Shown here: piece by piece, positions 41,228 through 58,507 of the stretch | Position numbering within the stretch: position 1 is the first letter of the stretch | Layout: every line of letters starts with the position of its first letter | Origin: Panax quinquefolius | Lineage: Eukaryota > Streptophyta > Magnoliopsida > Apiales > Araliaceae | NCBI GenBank assembly: GCA_020205615.1 | Contig: CM035164.1 | Coordinates: 119,785,363-119,849,362, forward strand | Length of the DNA: 64,000 bases | Direction of reading: 5' to 3' | Position numbers and translations under genes: made by a program | Notes under the pieces: generated by a model | What the model saw: the letters and a program-made list of their open reading frames with translations, nothing else | Database searches by the model: none | Told to the model about the DNA's origin: nothing

Positions 41228-41800
41228 TCACGGGTTCAAGGTCGATACAAAATTCAATTTCATGCTCGGGGTAGGCCAGAAGTTCTTGAGAATACGCTGA
41301 AATTTATTAACAATAGAAATATCGTTCAAAACTGACGTATTTTTGTTTAAATCTATGACATGAGCTAAGAAAGCTTGACATCCGTTTTTCAATAAACGAA
41401 TAGCTTTATAGCTTGAGATGACCGTGATTGATTTTAATGGTTTGGTCGTTTGAATTTGCATAATAGGTTGATTAGGAATATGAAAGCTAACAACCTTATG
41501 AAAACAATCAATTTTTGCATGATAAGTATTTAACCAATCAATCCCTAAAATCACGTCAAATGCAAGTATTTTTAATGAAATAAGATCGACAGGTAATGTG
41601 AGGGTACCGATTTGAACCAAACAAGACTTATAAACGATTGGATGTAATGAAGGTTTCTCCCAACGGAGTTTCCACAGATAAGTCAAAGTCTAATTTCTCC
41701 GAGTCAAATTTAATCGATGGCGCAAGTAGGAGAAATAAAAGAATGGGTAGAACCAGTATCAAATAAAGTATAGACTTCATTAGAGTTTATGATAAGCTTA
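41228..41800 (-). pseudogene. Retropepsin-like protease of gypsy C
   Basis: The minus-strand frame 41228-41686 (152 aa) contains 'LISLKILAFDVILGIDWLNT' then 'AKIDCFHKVVSFHIPNQ', the RVP_2 signature, followed by the protease-RT linker 'VLNDISIVNKFQ'. The N-terminal active-site segment lies beyond a frame break near 41700-41760. Confidence 0.8.
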
Positions 41801-43012
41801 CCCGTGATGACCTCATTCGGGTTCCTTGCTCTCTCGGGAGGTCACAACAAACGCTCTCTCAGACTCACGGTTTTGACTTTTACGGGGACGACCTTTGGTG
41901 CCTCCATCCTAGTTGAATTTGTCTTGAACGACAAAATCGAGCTAAGTGACCTTCTTCCACAATTATAACATGTTTTGACTAAGATGGCATGCTTGATTCG
42001 GATGATGTGTCCCTCTTCTCCGCATTTGAAGCATATGATAGGTGGTTTTTCTTCTTCCTTAACAACTGTGGTCTTTGGTCTTGACGTCTTTCCATCATTG
42101 TTGAATCTTCGTTTCTTGAAATGTCCATTCTTATTGTTTTGGCCCGATTACCACCAAGTGGTTACCGTGATCGCCCGTTGATTCCCTCCTCTTGTTGTCA
42201 CCGCTTGATGACTACTCTCATTGGTATTATAATTTTTTTTCTACCGCTCTCTTTTAGTTCGTTGACTCGTTATCGCGCTCCACTAATCGAGCCCTATTTA
42301 CAACATCTGAATACAAAAACACGGTTTATGAGAAATAAGATGTTGACGTATCTCAAACTTGAACCTCTTAAAACATTCGTGCCATTCTCTCTTCATTATC
42401 CACCAAGTGGGGATGAACCGTGATAACTCCGCAAATTTTGCCTCGTATTGCGACACGGCCATATTGTTTTGTTCCAACTTGATAAACTCCACCTCCTTCA
42501 TGTGGCGAATACTTTCGGGAAAGTATTTGTCGTTGAACAACTCTAGAACTTCTCCCAAGATATCTTGAAGACAAAGAAGTTGAGTACGTTTTACCGATTC
42601 CCACCAAGAATCGCCTCTCCACGCAATATAAAGGCGTGAAGGAAACCTTTTGCTCTCGGAGCATCCCAAGACATCAAATATCTTGGTAATCGCTTTATCC
42701 ATGCTCCGCTTGAAGTGGTTTTGCTCTCCTTAAACTCCGTGGTCCCACTCCTTGAATTGTTTAGCGGTATGACCACCGAGAGTTTTTTCGTGTTTCCACC
42801 TACGTTTTGGATGAGAGTCGCTCTCATCTTTCTTTGTTGCATAAATTCACATAAAGCCTCGAACATTTGATCATTCATCATTTGGTCGGTGTTATTGTTT
42901 GTACATGAGGATTGTTGCCTTCTTGATGCACATTATCCACGATTATTGATATGTGGTGAATCAACGATCGCTCACGTGCTCCATTGCTATTCTCAACATT
43001 CTCGGATGTCAT
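41801..43012 (-). pseudogene. Gag of gypsy C, frameshifted
   Basis: The start codon is at 43010-43012 ('MTSENVENSNG'). Frames 42591-42881, 42298-42702 and 42368-42664 overlap and together show the capsid-like retrotransposon gag domain ('ITKIFDVLGCSESKRFPS', 'GDSWWESVKRTQ', 'ELFNDKYFPESIRHMKEVEF', 'MAVSQYEAKFAELSRFIPTW'). The nucleocapsid knuckle is near 41940-42030. Several one-base frame changes break it; the key residues of the domain are otherwise well kept. Confidence 0.85.
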
Positions 43013-48637: not shown

Positions 48638-49428
48638 TGCATCCATGATAAGAATTAGATTGAACTATTCCAAAGAATCAAAGAAAATGAATAATAAGTT
48701 ATTACAAGTTGTAGTGGTTGAGGCAATTAAATTGGGACATGCCACTACAACTTGTAGCTAGGACAACTTAACATAATACTATTAATATTTTGTTATATTA
48801 TTAATATTTTGTAATATTATTCTTAATAATATTTATATTAATAATATTAATATTAATAATAATATTTTGTAATATTATTAATACTAATATTAATATTTTG
48901 TAATATTAGTATTAATAATATTAATATTAATAATAGTAATAACTAATATATATGAATATTAATACTAGTATTACTATTATTCTTATTAATATAAATATTA
49001 ATAATATTATCGATTAATATTAATCCAACTATGTAGTTCCAATAATTTACTCCTGCAGTAACTAATTTACTCACGTATTAGGTTCTATTAGGTACGGATG
49101 GAGTAAATTATTGGAAACAAAGTTGGATTAATATTAGTTGGTAATATTATTAATATTTATATTAATAAGAATAATAGTAATATTTGTATTAATATTCATA
49201 TTAGTTATTACAATTATTAATATTAATATTATTATTAATATAAATATCATTAATACTAATATTATAAAATATTAATATTAGTATTAATAATATTATTATG
49301 TTGAAGTTGTCCTAACCGCTACAAGTTGTAGTGACATGTCCCAATTTAATTGTCCCAAACCACTACAATAGTAGCTTATTCTTTTTTTGGGTTCAGTGGA
49401 ATAGTTTCATAACAACCTATTACATGGA

Positions 49429-53093: not shown

Positions 53094-53174
53094 TAATTAT
53101 TAAAGGAGTTTGGGAATTAATTAATAAATTGTACTCTCATATATTCCTTATAAGATTAGGAGACTAATTAATTA
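51973..53174 (+). repeat. Orphan copia LTR, left part (5'-truncated)
   Basis: Complementary to 17786-19661 and 25050-26915, starting in CTACATGATGTT about 120 bp inside the LTR. Interrupted at 53174 by the CACTA element. An (ATT)n expansion lies at about 53058-53092. No partner LTR or interior is in the window. Confidence 0.85.
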
Positions 53175-53640
53175 CACTACTACAAAATAGTAAATAGACA
53201 ACACTTAAACTACAACGTTTTTTATAAAAATATTATGGTATTTTTTTTCACAACGTTTTAAAAAAAACGTTGTAGATACATATGCAAAAATGTTATCTAT
53301 TTAAAAGGGTATTTTTTTTGGTTTTAAATAGATAACATTTAAAAAAAAAACGTTGTGTAGGTCAAAAACACGGAGCAAAATATCGGCCTTAAGTGAAAAC
53401 TTAAAATTAAAAGATAAAGTCTTTTGTCTGTGCTCGTGAGTTCATTTTCGTTCCTTTCTTCAATTTTCATCGTCTCTTTCGATTTTTCTCTCATTTTTTC
53501 TTCTGTTTTGGGGCTAGATTTTCATTCGTAAGTTCTTCATCTCTTTGGATTTGTTCCAGAATTATACGGGATCAACCCTAGGAGGAGTTGGACATAAGCC
53601 ATAAATCGTCTCGAAGAAACCCTAAAAGGAGGCTAGAATC

Positions 53641-53714
53641 ATGAAGAGCATGAAGCCACTTAAGCAACTGAAGCTCTCCGTACCTGCTCAAGAAACACCT
53701 ATCACCAGTTTCTT
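53641..53714 (+). pseudogene. Captured first exon of an MKK6-type MAP kinase kinase
   Basis: ATG at 53641 begins 'MKSMKPLKQLKLSVPAQETP' followed by 'ITSF', the conserved N-terminus of plant MKK6/NQK1-type MAP2Ks, ending at a phase-2 donor GTAAGC (53715). The ~200 bp before it look like a 5' UTR. The kinase domain is absent. MKK6 acts in the cytokinesis MAP kinase cascade; this fragment can retain only the N-terminal tail. It probably supplies the transcript start and initiation codon for downstream captured pieces. Confidence 0.82.
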
Positions 53715-53773
53715 GTAAGCTCTCTCAAGTTTCGCTTATCTATTTTGACATTTTCTATTTATTATCTTTCTAG

Positions 53774-53970
53774 CTTACTGGGTTCACGCCAAAATCCTGC
53801 TTATAGAAAAACCTTACGCCATTTCTTTAGCACAACACAAACCCTAAACGGGTTATTACCCGAATCACTCTACAAAAGGTTATCATCAATCGGTGACCCT
53901 AGCATTTCGGTTGTGCCAGTTCTCGATCAATGGGTCCGGAAAGGAAGAGAGATCCGGAAATTTCAAATCG
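53774..53970 (+). pseudogene. Captured N-terminal piece of a mitochondrial PPR protein
   Basis: After an acceptor CTTTCTAG (ending 53773) the frame reads 'QNPAYRKTLRHFFSTTQTLN' then 'LLPESLYKRLSSIGDPSISV' and 'VPVLDQWV', typical of the targeting and linker region of At1g80270-type pentatricopeptide proteins. No PPR motif array follows. The piece is in frame with the MKK exon if the 59 bp intron is removed, giving an open frame to 54215 of about 171 codons. The intron is short for a plant. Confidence 0.7.
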
Positions 53971-54060
53971 ATTATTTTTTGATTGGGCAGAGTACTGGGC
54001 TGCTGATGAGTGACCTGAGCAATAGGGGCCCTCAGATTTCAAAATTTCAAATAATTTGTA

Positions 54061-54201
54061 GAGAATGTGGGTTCTCCAATTCTTGTATCTGGGTTGTCAC
54101 CCTCCGGGATTGCAGCAGCTTTCTTGCTTGGTACTCTCACTTGGCGTGCTTTTGGCCCTTCTGGTTTTCTTCTGGTTGCTACTTATTTTGTTCTTATAAG
54201 T
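54061..54201 (+). pseudogene. Captured VTE6-like membrane protein fragment
   Basis: In the frame starting at 54061 it reads 'NVGSPILVSGLSPSGIAAAF' and 'LLGTLTWRAFGPSGFLLVAT', which matches the DUF92/VTE6 (phytyl-phosphate kinase, chloroplast membrane) family with two hydrophobic segments. This frame differs from the PPR frame, so a read-through product would not preserve it. Confidence 0.6.
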
Positions 54202-54843
54202 TGAAGTTTAATTAATTTGATTCTGGGTATTAAGATTTGCTTATATATTCTCTGGATTAGCATAATTTTTTGATAATGAAATTGGCATATTTTAGCATAA
54301 ATGTGATTACAAGCCAATAAAAAAAATCTTGATTTTTTATTTGCCTTTCCTTGAGACTTTTGTTAGTAAATGACTACATTATACTGCCATAATTTTGTTT
54401 CCGAGTTTGAGAAGAACAGAAATGATACATGGAATGATTATTAAAGGCACTCCACCATTGTAAATTTGTAATCTGTGTCATTACAGATTACAAATTCGCT
54501 ATATCTTTGATCTTGCCTTTGATCAGGTGTGTTCTCTGCCTTATTCTTCTTCCTGCATTGTGCCTAATTTAGCTGATTCTAATTTTTGTGATGGTTAATG
54601 TACTTACCTTTAGTTTGCACACCCTGTTAAGGACTATCTGTGAAGGACAGGAAGGTTTGATGTTGTTTCTCCTTTATTTCAATTTCTACAAGTGAAGTGT
54701 TTATGCAGTAAATTGTCCTTTGAAGGCAGTAAAACTTAACAGAAGGTTCAACTATTTCAGGAGCAAATACTAATGGAACAACAGGTTAAATCTTGGAAGT
54801 TTTTATTTCCTTAGAGAAATCATTTGGTATATGGTATCAACAG

Positions 54844-54948
54844 GTTTTTGATGAAGGCGATGTTCTTTATGTTTTTCCAAAAGACCGATCAAAGCTTGCA
54901 GCCAAGTCACTTTGGATAAAATATGAACCTCTAGTTGAAAAGGCTAAG
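54844..54948 (+). pseudogene. Captured exon of an At5g03900-like chloroplast protein
   Basis: Between an acceptor CAACAG and a donor GTATTG the exon reads 'FDEGDVLYVFPKDRSKLAAK' then 'SLWIKYEPLVEKAK'. I recall this motif from uncharacterised chloroplast proteins of the At5g03900 type; function unknown. A further coding-like piece, 'YDAINPWLVLTGM' near 55045-55085, is not recognised. Confidence 0.5.
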
Positions 54949-55946
54949 GTATTGCCCTTGTATCTTCTTCACGTTTGTGTTTCTTTGGAAGAATCAATGC
55001 TAGGGGATCCAAAGTGTTTACCAAAATATCCTTTTCTTTTACAGTATGATGCAATAAATCCTTGGCTGGTTCTGACTGGAATGGCTTTTGATCTATTGTT
55101 GGGTATGCAAAGTTGGGTTTGTTTGGGTCTTGTTGTCTACAAAGTTGGGTCTGTTTGGGTTTTGTTGGGAGGTTGGGCAACTGTATACCGTGTGCTGCTG
55201 GGATTTCTTGGCAGTTTGGCTACAGTTGTTATTGCTGGCCTCTGCATTTACTCCTTGCTGGTTTGCAAATATAGAATTAGTTTTTGACTGTCTATGTACC
55301 AGACATTACAGTTTTGGAAATTTTGAAGATTTTAATTATCAATGTACTTGTCATAATATCTTACTTGAATTTCAAACTCCTCTTGTTTTTGTCTTAGTTC
55401 TTTATTCTTTTGACAGTTTTCTATCGTAATTTTGCTCATTTTGTTAACATTTTTCAAGTAAGGACAGTTAATATGTTTGGAAACTCCTGCTGTTTGTTGC
55501 TGCTATGAATATGGTGTATCTAACCAACCAGTTCCAGAAGTTCATGCAGTTAGTTATTTTAATTATCTATGCCATTTTCATTGGCAGCCATCATTGCTTG
55601 GAACTTCACAGTATCTATTTTCTGTTCATCTTTCTAGTACTTTGTTATTATTCAATATTTATTCGCTGTACTTGTTTATCATTGGGGTGAATACTAACAT
55701 TGAAGATTATCTGCTTCTTTGTGGGAACTAAATTTAGGTGCAACTTAGTGCAGAGCCGGTAATGTGATACCACTTACATGCAATGAACGTAACTGTACTC
55801 ATATGTTCCTACTTAATGGAATCATTCTTTTGAGTTGAGAATTATACCCTCCTTAGCAGAAATGATTATTGGGGGTTTTTTATTTGGTAATATAGAAAAA
55901 ACCTCTCATGTTCACTATATATATGTTATGTTTTATCATACTGCAG

Positions 55947-56034
55947 TTACTGAATAGTTTGGTGGGCTTTATGTGTCCCCAACCATAGCTGGTAGTAGGC
56001 CTGGAGGTTTAATTGCTGGAGCTTGGGCAGCCAT
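55947..56034 (+). pseudogene. Captured exon of sphingosine-1-phosphate lyase
   Basis: After the acceptor CTGCAG the exon reads V-T-E-stop-F then 'GGLYVSPTIAGSRPGGLIAG' and 'AWAAM', the strongly conserved segment of the PLP-dependent sphingosine-1-phosphate lyase (DPL1). A TAG replaces the tryptophan codon of the usual TEW motif, so the exon cannot be read through. Only this exon is present. Confidence 0.85.
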
Positions 56035-56295
56035 GTTTATTGGATTTGAAAATGTCATGATGTATGATAGATTTTGGCATGTGATATATCTCCACTCTCA
56101 TTATAACTTTTCATCAATCAAACTCTGTTCAAATATGATCATATGTGTTCACATTGTCTATATTTGTGTTCTAGTGGATCAATAATGGTTTGAAATGTTA
56201 GGAGGCATATTTCTTATGTCATTCAAGCTATTCTAAACTTTTTACTGGCACTCCAAAAACTGAAGTTAGTACATTGTATTGAGATGGAAAAAGAA

Positions 56296-56327
56296 TGCAT
56301 ATAGCACCATCTGGATTGATTGGCAAG
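56296..56327 (+). pseudogene. Captured enolase exon (partial)
   Basis: Reads 'IAPSGLIGK' up to a donor GTATAT, matching the cytosolic enolase segment before the next exon. Its left edge is uncertain because the preceding intron boundary is not obvious. Confidence 0.65.
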
Positions 56328-56455
56328 GTATATTTTTGCACTTCCTTTTCTTTATTTCTGTTTATGAAGCTTCATTTTGTATTCTTAGTGTTCTTTTCTT
56401 TAAAAGAATTGGATTATTTATTAAAAAATAAAGTTTTAGTCCTATTCAACTATAG

Positions 56456-56542
56456 GACCCTACAGAGCAAACCAAACTTGACAATTTCATGCTACAACAA
56501 CTTGACGGAACAGTGAATGAATGGGGTTGGTGCAAACAAAAG
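56456..56542 (+). pseudogene. Captured enolase exon
   Basis: 87 bp exon, acceptor TATAG and donor GTACTG, reads '[20 protein letters not shown]' and 'NEWGWCKQK', nearly the canonical cytosolic enolase (2-phosphoglycerate dehydratase) sequence. Open in frame. Confidence 0.9.
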
Positions 56543-56666
56543 GTACTGTGAAGTTCGCTGCTCTGTCCTTGATAACTTGGTTTGTGCACTTTATACTAAT
56601 TTATGTAGATGAATCTTGAGAGTTTTGTCTTCATTGGTACTCCTGTTTTCTCTTTGATTATAGCAG

Positions 56667-56747
56667 CTTGGTGCAAATGTTATCTTGGCAGTATCACTTG
56701 CTGTTTGCAAAGTAGGAGCTAGTGTCAACAAAATCCCCCTCTACAAG
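56667..56747 (+). pseudogene. Captured enolase exon, consecutive
   Basis: 81 bp exon, acceptor TAGCAG and donor GTATTG, reads '[20 protein letters not shown]' and 'NKIPLYK', directly following the previous exon in enolase. The intron between the two is kept, so the capture was at the DNA level and not from spliced mRNA. The catalytic C-terminal barrel is absent. Confidence 0.9.
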
Positions 56748-56986
56748 GTATTGAATTGCTACATTGTCTCTTCCTTTCTCAGTTTGATGTATAAATAAAT
56801 ATTTACTTTCCATACTGTAGAAGCTGCCAAGGCTTCCATGGGTATGTTAATTTGAAGTTGATTGTGAATGAAACCACACATCCTCTATTCACTTTGACTT
56901 TTCCCTCTTTTAGGATAGGATTTGTCCCCAGTTGACTTGATTAATGTCAAGTTATTTGCATGACCAGTTTCCATTATTTCCTCCAG

Positions 56987-57105
56987 AATCCTGCTGAGCT
57001 TGATGACTGGCTTGGTGATTTGAACCCAGAGTCTAAAGTAGCGATGCCGTGTGCTTATGCTGTACCTACACTTCGTCCTGCTGCAGTTGGAGATAGCTTT
57101 TAGTT
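56987..57105 (+). pseudogene. Captured exon of unrecognised gene
   Basis: After the acceptor CTCCAG the frame 'NPAELDDWLGDLNPESKVAM' and 'PCAYAVPTLRPAAVGDSF' runs to a stop. Codon-like composition and boundaries suggest another captured exon; I do not recognise the family. A possible mini-exon 56820-56839 precedes it. Confidence 0.4.
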
Positions 57106-57273
57106 TGAAAGGCTAGGTAAATTCAAGAACCCTTTAGTTGTTACTTTAGTGAAATGTTAAGGTATTATTGGAATTAGGCACCGTTATACATGACATATTC
57201 TACTTGGAATATGATGTATGAAACTGATGTATTTATGTATTATCATTGAAGTAATGATTAATATTGCTTACAG

Positions 57274-57414
57274 AATAAAAGATGCAAGTGTGAAGATTAT
57301 GTGTGCTGGTGTAGTTGTTGGACTTCTAACTTTAGCTGGCTTGAAGTATTTACCATTTAGGAGCAGCTTTGCCGTTCCACGTAAAGATATGGGTTCAGCA
57401 ATTGCTTTTAAAGT
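57274..57414 (+). pseudogene. Captured ARC6-like plastid-division protein fragment
   Basis: After the acceptor TTACAG the frame reads 'IKDASVKIMCAGVVVGLLTL' and 'AGLKYLPFRSSFAVPRKDMG', which resembles the transmembrane region of ARC6 (inner-envelope plastid division protein). The rest of the gene is absent. The call is from family memory of the 'SVKIM..G' and 'LAGLK' motifs. Confidence 0.6.
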
Positions 57415-57953
57415 GCAACCATTCATGCTGAGCCTTTTATTCTTCTGGCTACATGAGGCTTATTCATGGCTCTTTTCCTTTCTTGTATTTTTTTAGAAGA
57501 GATGTGACTTGACTTAGTTTTTATTTTTTGGATGTAGCAATTTGAAACTGTAAACGAATGGTATTATTGGGATGTATTTTGAATGGTTGATACATTTTGG
57601 CTATATATCATGGCATTAGCATATTGCAGGTGCATTGGGTAATATAGGTGAATCACATCTTTTTTTTTTCTTTTTTCTTTTTTATCTACAACATTTAAAA
57701 AACGTTGTCTGATATACTAAACAACAACATTTTTATCCAAAAAATGTTGTGGAATCATACCTTTTACAATGTTTTTAAGTATCTACTAATTTTTGGAAAA
57801 CAAATCTACGACGTTTGTGTATTGTGCTTAACTACAACGTTTTAAAAACGTTGTGTAAGGGTATCAAATAGACAACACCCTTAACCACGACGTTTTTCTG
57901 ACTGAAACCACAACGTTTTTTTCGCGTTGTCTATTTACTGTTTTGTAGTAGTG

Positions 57954-58507
57954 TTAAAAGAGTTTAATTAATTATTCCTAATAAGATTAGGAGCCTAATT
58001 AATTAAAGGAGTTTAATTAATTAAAATAAAATTCAATTCCTAAATTGTTTAGGAGGGTTCCCTACATCTATAAATAAGATAGTCTTATTATGGGTAAGGG
58101 TTACACAAAATAACAATTCCAAGAGTTGGGAGAGTACTGACATATTCCATAAAGATAGAATTAGGATTTTGTCAAACACTCATCTTCTTGAATACTTGTT
58201 TTTCCTAGGTGGACCACCTCTAGATGTCAAACATTAGGGTGGCTAACGTTGATCAAAGAAAGGAATCAAACCCGGTGGATTCAAGTAGAACGTAAAAAGG
58301 AATTGGAGGTGAACTCGTACATGAGGAATCTAGTTTTTACAAGGGTATGAATCTGATCTTCATCTCCTTTCTATTGATTGATAATTATGTACAAAGTATG
58401 ATCATGTGATGTTTTAATTTGTATGAAAAATTTAAATTCCGTTTTATCGCGATTTCGCACATTTTATGTAATTTGATTGCATTATCGCGCTATATACAAA
58501 CCTAACA
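57954..58507 (+). repeat. Orphan copia LTR, right part
   Basis: Resumes after the TTA duplication with AAAAGAGTTTAATTAATTA and ends CCTAACA at 58507, preserving the ancestral LTR terminus that is mutated in the 17.8-26.9 kb element. A TATA-like motif CTATAAATAAG lies at 58069-58079. Confidence 0.87.

Follow-up and report, generated by a model that had tools for sequence, protein, structure and literature searches.

We analysed a 64,000-nucleotide stretch of Panax quinquefolius DNA (contig CM035164.1, the window hereafter) and found at positions 53175-57953 a non-autonomous CACTA element of ~4.8 kb that is very probably a Pack-CACTA transposon whose cargo of host gene pieces grew stepwise through capture and element fusion, with sense cargo being kept. 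Models of how CACTA elements capture genes have so far relied largely on end products. In the present assembly the donors occur together with the completed mosaic, another copy of it and partly built relatives, and capture order, boundaries and orientation can therefore be read directly.

Element ends and donor loci

The termini of the element (CACTACTACAAAA) form terminal inverted repeats (TIRs) that are perfect across 13 bp, as a sequence-only reading of the window had described at exactly these coordinates, and that match at 27 of 28 bp when extended to 28. Within the window the 13-mer occurs at up to one mismatch just at both element ends, against 0.15 occurrences expected by chance. The subterminal motif ACAACGTTT, also noted in that reading, is present in four exact copies in the left 246 bp and four in the right 283 bp (ten in the right end region when one mismatch is allowed), with no exact copy in the 4,250-bp interior between the end regions and one in the rest of the window. 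TTA is present on both flanks, and its proposed duplication upon insertion is well supported because the adjoining tandem unit acts as an empty-site copy: the element interrupts a unit within a tandem array of 49-bp repeats, and its removal together with one TTA yields a site identical to the adjacent unit at 48 of 51 positions, a match that is broken when both TTAs are retained. The alignment to this paralogous empty site scored 43.5, compared to 14.5 for the best among 200 shuffles. A search of the TIR pattern against viral contigs gave no exact match, and no RNA genes were found within the element at E≤0.1.

Using DNA searches and fetched loci in the 3.57-Gb host assembly of 821 contigs, we assigned 3,794 of the 4,250 interior bases to 13 separate donor loci, at 92-99% identity, and to a dispersed repeat, with individual cargo pieces measuring ~60-620 bp (Table 1). 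The donors are not all on different chromosomes, and the nearest pair sharing one lies 3.7 Mb apart. We rejected the alternative that the pieces form one native locus, as they map to 13 separate places. All seven donors named from the sequence alone (MKK6, PPR, VTE6-like, At5g03900-like, sphingosine-1-phosphate lyase (SPL), enolase and ARC6-like) proved real, with host loci for each, and the accompanying count of at least six donors was sound for every gene it named and too low overall, having missed glutamine--tRNA ligase (GlnRS), a NOP56-like gene (Nop-domain), a NAT10-like gene and three loci to which no gene was assigned (C6/C22, C8/C15 and C22/C655).

Ten of the donor loci (MKK6, PPR, VTE6, At5g03900, SPL, enolase, NOP56-like, GlnRS, ARC6 and NAT10-like) were identified as genes because neighbouring exons sit on the same strand, with a neighbouring-exon match of E 8.6e-9 at the SPL locus and Enolase_C downstream at the enolase locus. 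At the protein level, MKK6 exon 1 agrees with MKK6 of Heracleum, with that of Apium and with one unnamed entry at 25 of 25 residues; named plant proteins align with the pieces of VTE6, At5g03900, GlnRS and ARC6; and the SPL piece matches solved structures, as do the three enolase exon pieces that had been recognised, with their introns, at the outset. The PPR piece had no match in any of four protein searches, one of which was judged on the 120 hits listed of 414, and was identified through its donor locus alone, where PPR repeats are encoded downstream.

Nine of the 13 donors correspond to two homeolog-like loci on different contigs and the NOP56-like donor to at least three, with At5g03900, SPL and enolase each having one good donor among the matches listed; the paired loci probably represent homeologs of a tetraploid host. 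Introns are kept in the cargo, which shows that DNA was the source of the captured pieces, and an origin from retro-copied cDNA was rejected on the same ground. We also set aside another VTE6 match, of 28-32% identity near 55033-55182, judged to be chance in a stretch that is dispersed repeat, and a proposed break in the GlnRS piece near 57118, at a splice site that is present in the donor as well. Near the 5' module, a 54-bp stretch at 53503-53556 recurs in other parts of the genome as at least ~20 further short, nearly identical copies.

Orientation and strand composition of the cargo

The ten identified donors are all in sense relative to the element's 5' end (two-sided p 0.002), and the early impression of a single transcriptional direction thus holds for 10 of the 10 donors that could be oriented. 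We extended the comparison to sister elements through five cargo blocks of L010, L012, L023 and L028, which contain 96 open frames of ≥45 aa, 59 in sense and 37 in antisense. At a Pfam threshold of E≤0.01 the sense frames matched dynamin (two domains), 14-3-3, 2-hydroxyacid dehydrogenase and a cation exchanger, and the antisense frames gave two matches, both judged noise; the weak matches set aside by judgement were Nlp36 in sense and Zn_ribbon_20 and EsV_1_7_cys in antisense. A PDB comparison, made with selected sense frames only, agreed for formate dehydrogenase (1.3e-26), a vacuolar exchanger (3.5e-10) and dynamin-related protein 1A (9.8e-8). Four further donors were thereby recognised in three of the four sister elements, all in sense, giving 14 of 14 for window and sister donors (p 1.2e-4 if captures are independent). 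Positions 933-1211 of L012, which resemble a galacturonosyltransferase N-terminus in sense, had no Pfam match and were not counted.

Strand composition was examined alongside. Among 1,025 overlapping same-size windows elsewhere in the 64 kb, none is as T-skewed as the element interior, and none exceeds the magnitude of its skew in either direction. T exceeds A in all 11 sister cargo segments (several of which share sequence, and which include L014-L016, copies without a found 3' end), compared to just one of 11 flanks. Read in their coding sense, the donor loci are likewise T-rich in 11 of 11 cases (9 genes, 0.005 to 0.195).

The sense bias could in principle be a product of chance or of detection, with neither selection nor mechanism behind it, which we regard as unlikely. 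Sister translations were inspected before Pfam was applied, no orientation could be given to three of the window donors or to much of the sister cargo, and the excess of sense frames favours sense detection in the sisters, where sense exons are somewhat easier to see because open frames are more numerous on T-rich strands (59 vs 37). Against this, the orientation of the ten window donors was read from the genes at their own loci, and noncoding cargo shows the same sense-like T>A skew that the flanks lack.

Probable stepwise growth of the mosaic, and its decay

The termini and target site duplications (TSDs) recur as a family: three sisters that are complete and carry different cargo are flanked by TSDs of their own (CTT, GTC and AGA), and the remaining 12 of the 15 sister loci examined showed no complete end pair with a matching TSD in the fetched stretch. 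In sisters the CACTA ends join the MKK6 module directly, and the MKK6-PPR module was found at nine other places. Relatives carry nested portions of the mosaic. Besides the ends, L015 and L016 share with the window element only the VTE6 block (53976-54485); L014 holds the VTE6, C6/C22 and C8/C15 pieces; L010 and L011 add the At5g03900 piece and the repeat, with an internal gap in L011; and L012 and L017 have 3' blocks in common with the window element. The copy at C19 (L009) contains the same mosaic up to 57608 with one internal insertion, and LTR-like (long terminal repeat) sequence begins at the end of the match; the finished mosaic was therefore a unit that had moved or been duplicated. At L009 3409-6301 and after 8444, sequence starting TGTGA and resembling an LTR retrotransposon interrupts this copy and breaks its right side.

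At four of four boundaries inspected, a relative continues as donor or repeat for 30 to 300 bases past the point at which the window element is cut. The VTE6 piece extends by 85 bp in L015 and by 300 bp, the whole tested stretch, in L016; the C8 piece by 30 bp in L014; the repeat by 286 bp in both L010 and L011; and the C22 piece by 164 bp in L012. Save for short chance matches, these continuations are not in the window element. The relatives are therefore not simple deletions of it, and each later step would have trimmed the preceding piece. The repeat/C22 junction near 55260 looks like a hybrid element in which a C11-type 5' part is united with a C10-type 3' part, a fusion that supports stepwise capture with joining of elements.

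Construction of the cargo in a single burst of template switching, with gap repair hopping among many loci, would be compatible with the small size of the pieces, with the overlaps at some junctions and with the short unexplained bases at others. We nevertheless consider it improbable given the nested subsets in relatives, with their shared junctions and longer terminal pieces, and the MKK6-PPR module at nine other places. The MKK6 piece, moreover, is 92% identical to its best donor compared to 95-99% for the other donor pieces, and is probably older for that reason.

Among the 14 junctions, which include two inside a single donor, both donors overlap exactly at four (by 3, 3, 7 and 5 bp), and up to 27 unexplained bases are found at junctions. 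Overlaps of ≥3 bp (4 of 14; simulation 0.011) and of ≥5 bp (2 of 14; simulation 0.0045) exceed chance and may reflect microhomology-assisted joining at some sites. Overlaps of any length, at 4 of 14 vs 47% expected, show no excess, in part because 2-8% divergence and filler bases hide overlaps.

In stepwise growth with retention of sense cargo, a CACTA transposase supplied in trans would move the element. Each step would involve trimming and would link the 5' part of one element either to fresh host DNA or to a 3' part from another element; these joins would follow excision or local insertion and arise through end joining or template switching. Sense, splice-competent cargo would be preferentially retained, as it could be spliced when the element sits in a gene or is read through with one. 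More tentatively, capture in this CACTA family may be strand-selective as a rule, with directional growth, trimming of tiles and preservation of intermediates; cargo that splices like ordinary pre-mRNA might hide the insertion from selection or silencing, or capture might be coupled to transcription. If family-wide, the sense bias would show which captured cargo survives and suggest why such elements sit in genes without destroying them.

Several observations weigh against stepwise growth with retention of sense cargo. The orientation p values presuppose that captures were independent, and no orientation could be assigned to three donors, to the repeat or to 53970-54065. L014-L016 have no recognised 3' end in the fetched stretch and are possibly damaged elements. 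Ten of the 14 junctions have no exact overlap (null ~53%), with long overlaps enriched and short ones not, and the summed overlap is marginal (0.048). Finally, the interior of the element showed no remnants of TIRs or of subterminal sequence, an absence that the fusion model allows and does not predict.

We also weighed whether the element now functions as a chimeric gene, which its sequence makes very improbable. It retains the start codon of MKK6 as well as many splice sites, but premature stops lie in the SPL and GlnRS pieces, the former TAG being found in the C19 copy as well and the latter in the window copy and not in C19. When MKK6 exon 1 was combined with four AG/GT-flanked exons, none of 15 combinations stayed open, and a looser exon model, with approximate ends and one misplaced exon (near 54763), reached at most 106 codons before a stop. 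The longest stop-free frame spans 183 codons across the MKK6-VTE6 pieces. As judged from these frames, there is no sign of a functional gene and the exons are decaying.

Table 1. Ends and cargo of the CACTA element, in window positions; donors are loci of the host assembly, with identity in brackets
Feature	Positions	Strand	Donor or remark
TTA target site duplication, left copy	53172-53174	.	in-window paralogous empty site
5' TIR, 28 bp	53175-53202	+	27/28 vs other end
5' subterminal region, 4 ACAACGTTT repeats	53203-53420	.	
MKK6 piece: pre-start-codon sequence, exon 1 (53641-53714), start of intron 1	53575-53770	+	C10:143352046-143352253 (92%); second locus C16
PPR gene, first-exon piece	53766-53960	+	C13:15500055 (95%) / C24
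Stretch common to several sister elements, donor unassigned	53970-54065	.	
VTE6 exon and intron	54066-54485	+	C11:124129958 (97%) / C14:126139010
Piece of locus without gene identity	54491-54640	.	C6:30552347 (97%) / C22:24653501
Piece of locus without gene identity	54633-54785	.	C8:31844719 (98%) / C15:17236397
At5g03900-like exon (54844-54948) and introns	54786-55052	+	C11:30557763 (95%)
Dispersed repeat, two pieces (55050-55141, 55158-55263), 92-95%	55050-55263	.	many genomic places, several sister elements
Piece of locus without gene identity	55262-55881	.	C22:28319999 (95%) / C655
SPL intron end and exon, TGG to TAG	55876-56035	+	C21:136064236 (98%)
Enolase, three exon pieces with introns, 121-bp internal deletion	56029-56796	+	C10:14782674-14783570 (97-99%)
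NOP56-like (Pfam Nop) exon-intron piece	56816-56959	+	C19:7937993 (97%), C3, C10
GlnRS, two stretches (56961-57199, 57195-57254), CAG to TAG	56961-57254	+	C21:128379283 (98%) / C23
ARC6 exon	57263-57407	+	C5:155008697 (98%) / C12:141744924
NAT10-like (GNAT_acetyltr_2) intron piece	57404-57522	+	C3:133444983 (97%) / C19
3' subterminal region, 4 exact ACAACGTTT repeats	57671-57925	.	
3' TIR	57926-57953	-	
TTA target site duplication, right copy	57954-57956	.	in-window paralogous empty site

Elsewhere in the window, remnants of decayed retrotransposons, among them gag and retroviral aspartyl protease domains, lie at 41228-42729 on the minus strand, and several long inverted repeats, whose arms of 73-102 nt are 75-93% complementary, sit beside AT microsatellites at 48796-49296.

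Comparison with known gene-capturing elements

TIRs that start with CACTA, a 3-bp TSD and a subterminal motif repeated at both ends place the element among CACTA (En/Spm) transposons. Host gene sequence between the TIRs, the lack of a transposase and a family with shared ends and different cargo, whose copies lie at different sites (three with their own TSDs), place it further among Pack-CACTAs; the ends, the TSD and the 13 donor loci thus bear out the initial description of a gene-capturing (Pack-type) CACTA element. Pack-MULEs have long TIRs and a TSD of roughly 9 bp, and we rejected this class given the 28-bp TIR and 3-bp TSD found here. The Helitron class (5' TC, 3' hairpin with CTRR, neither TIR nor TSD) was likewise rejected, since TIRs and a TSD are present and paired Helitron ends are not. 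That the pieces were first captured by a Helitron or MULE and later enclosed by a CACTA element is highly improbable, for although stepwise multi-gene capture is well described in maize Helitrons (PMC3288121, in the portion available), we found no convincing internal ends (one weak CTGG hairpin in the SPL piece and three single, unpaired 5'-like 9-mers within one mismatch) and, in a list of the 25 longest inverted repeats, no long internal one, and the CACTA ends of the sisters join the MKK6 module directly.

The comparisons that follow draw on the available parts of the cited papers. Tgm-Express1 of soybean is similarly a non-autonomous CACTA element, of 5.7 kb, that combines pieces of exons and introns from several unrelated genes (PMC1947982). 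Its pieces are spliced as cassette exons and are therefore sense to the host transcript. It differs in having five donors compared to 13 here, and assembly intermediates are not described in the available sections of that paper (PMC1947982). The Pack-CACTAs of Arabidopsis, maize and rice share CACTA ends, the lack of a transposase and coding DNA from several loci, those of maize containing the most distinct loci (PMC8903248), and growth by fusion of neighbouring elements, or through hybrid elements, has been proposed (PMC8903248; PMC13317346). As described in the available part of that study (PMC8903248), they differ from the present case in the nested intermediates with longer donor tiles and the all-sense cargo seen here. 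The kind is further known from maize CACTAs that contain gene pieces (PMC2773423), from Chenopodium (PMC8978399) and from soybean Tgmt (PMC2613891). We found no report on strand bias of CACTA cargo by title and abstract, together with a few full sections, in a literature where subscription journals fell mostly outside the scope.

Maize Helitrons resemble the element in acquiring multi-gene cargo in sequential steps and in having related elements with different cargo, and differ in class, as the window element has TIRs and 3-bp TSDs (PMC3288121). Within the host genus, PgCACTA1 of Panax ginseng is also En/Spm-like and, as far as its description allows comparison, differs in having two transposase genes and 31-bp TIRs (PMC6181221). 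The kind of element is thus already known as Pack-CACTA; what is unusual here is the density of donors, the strict sense bias and the survival of intermediates.

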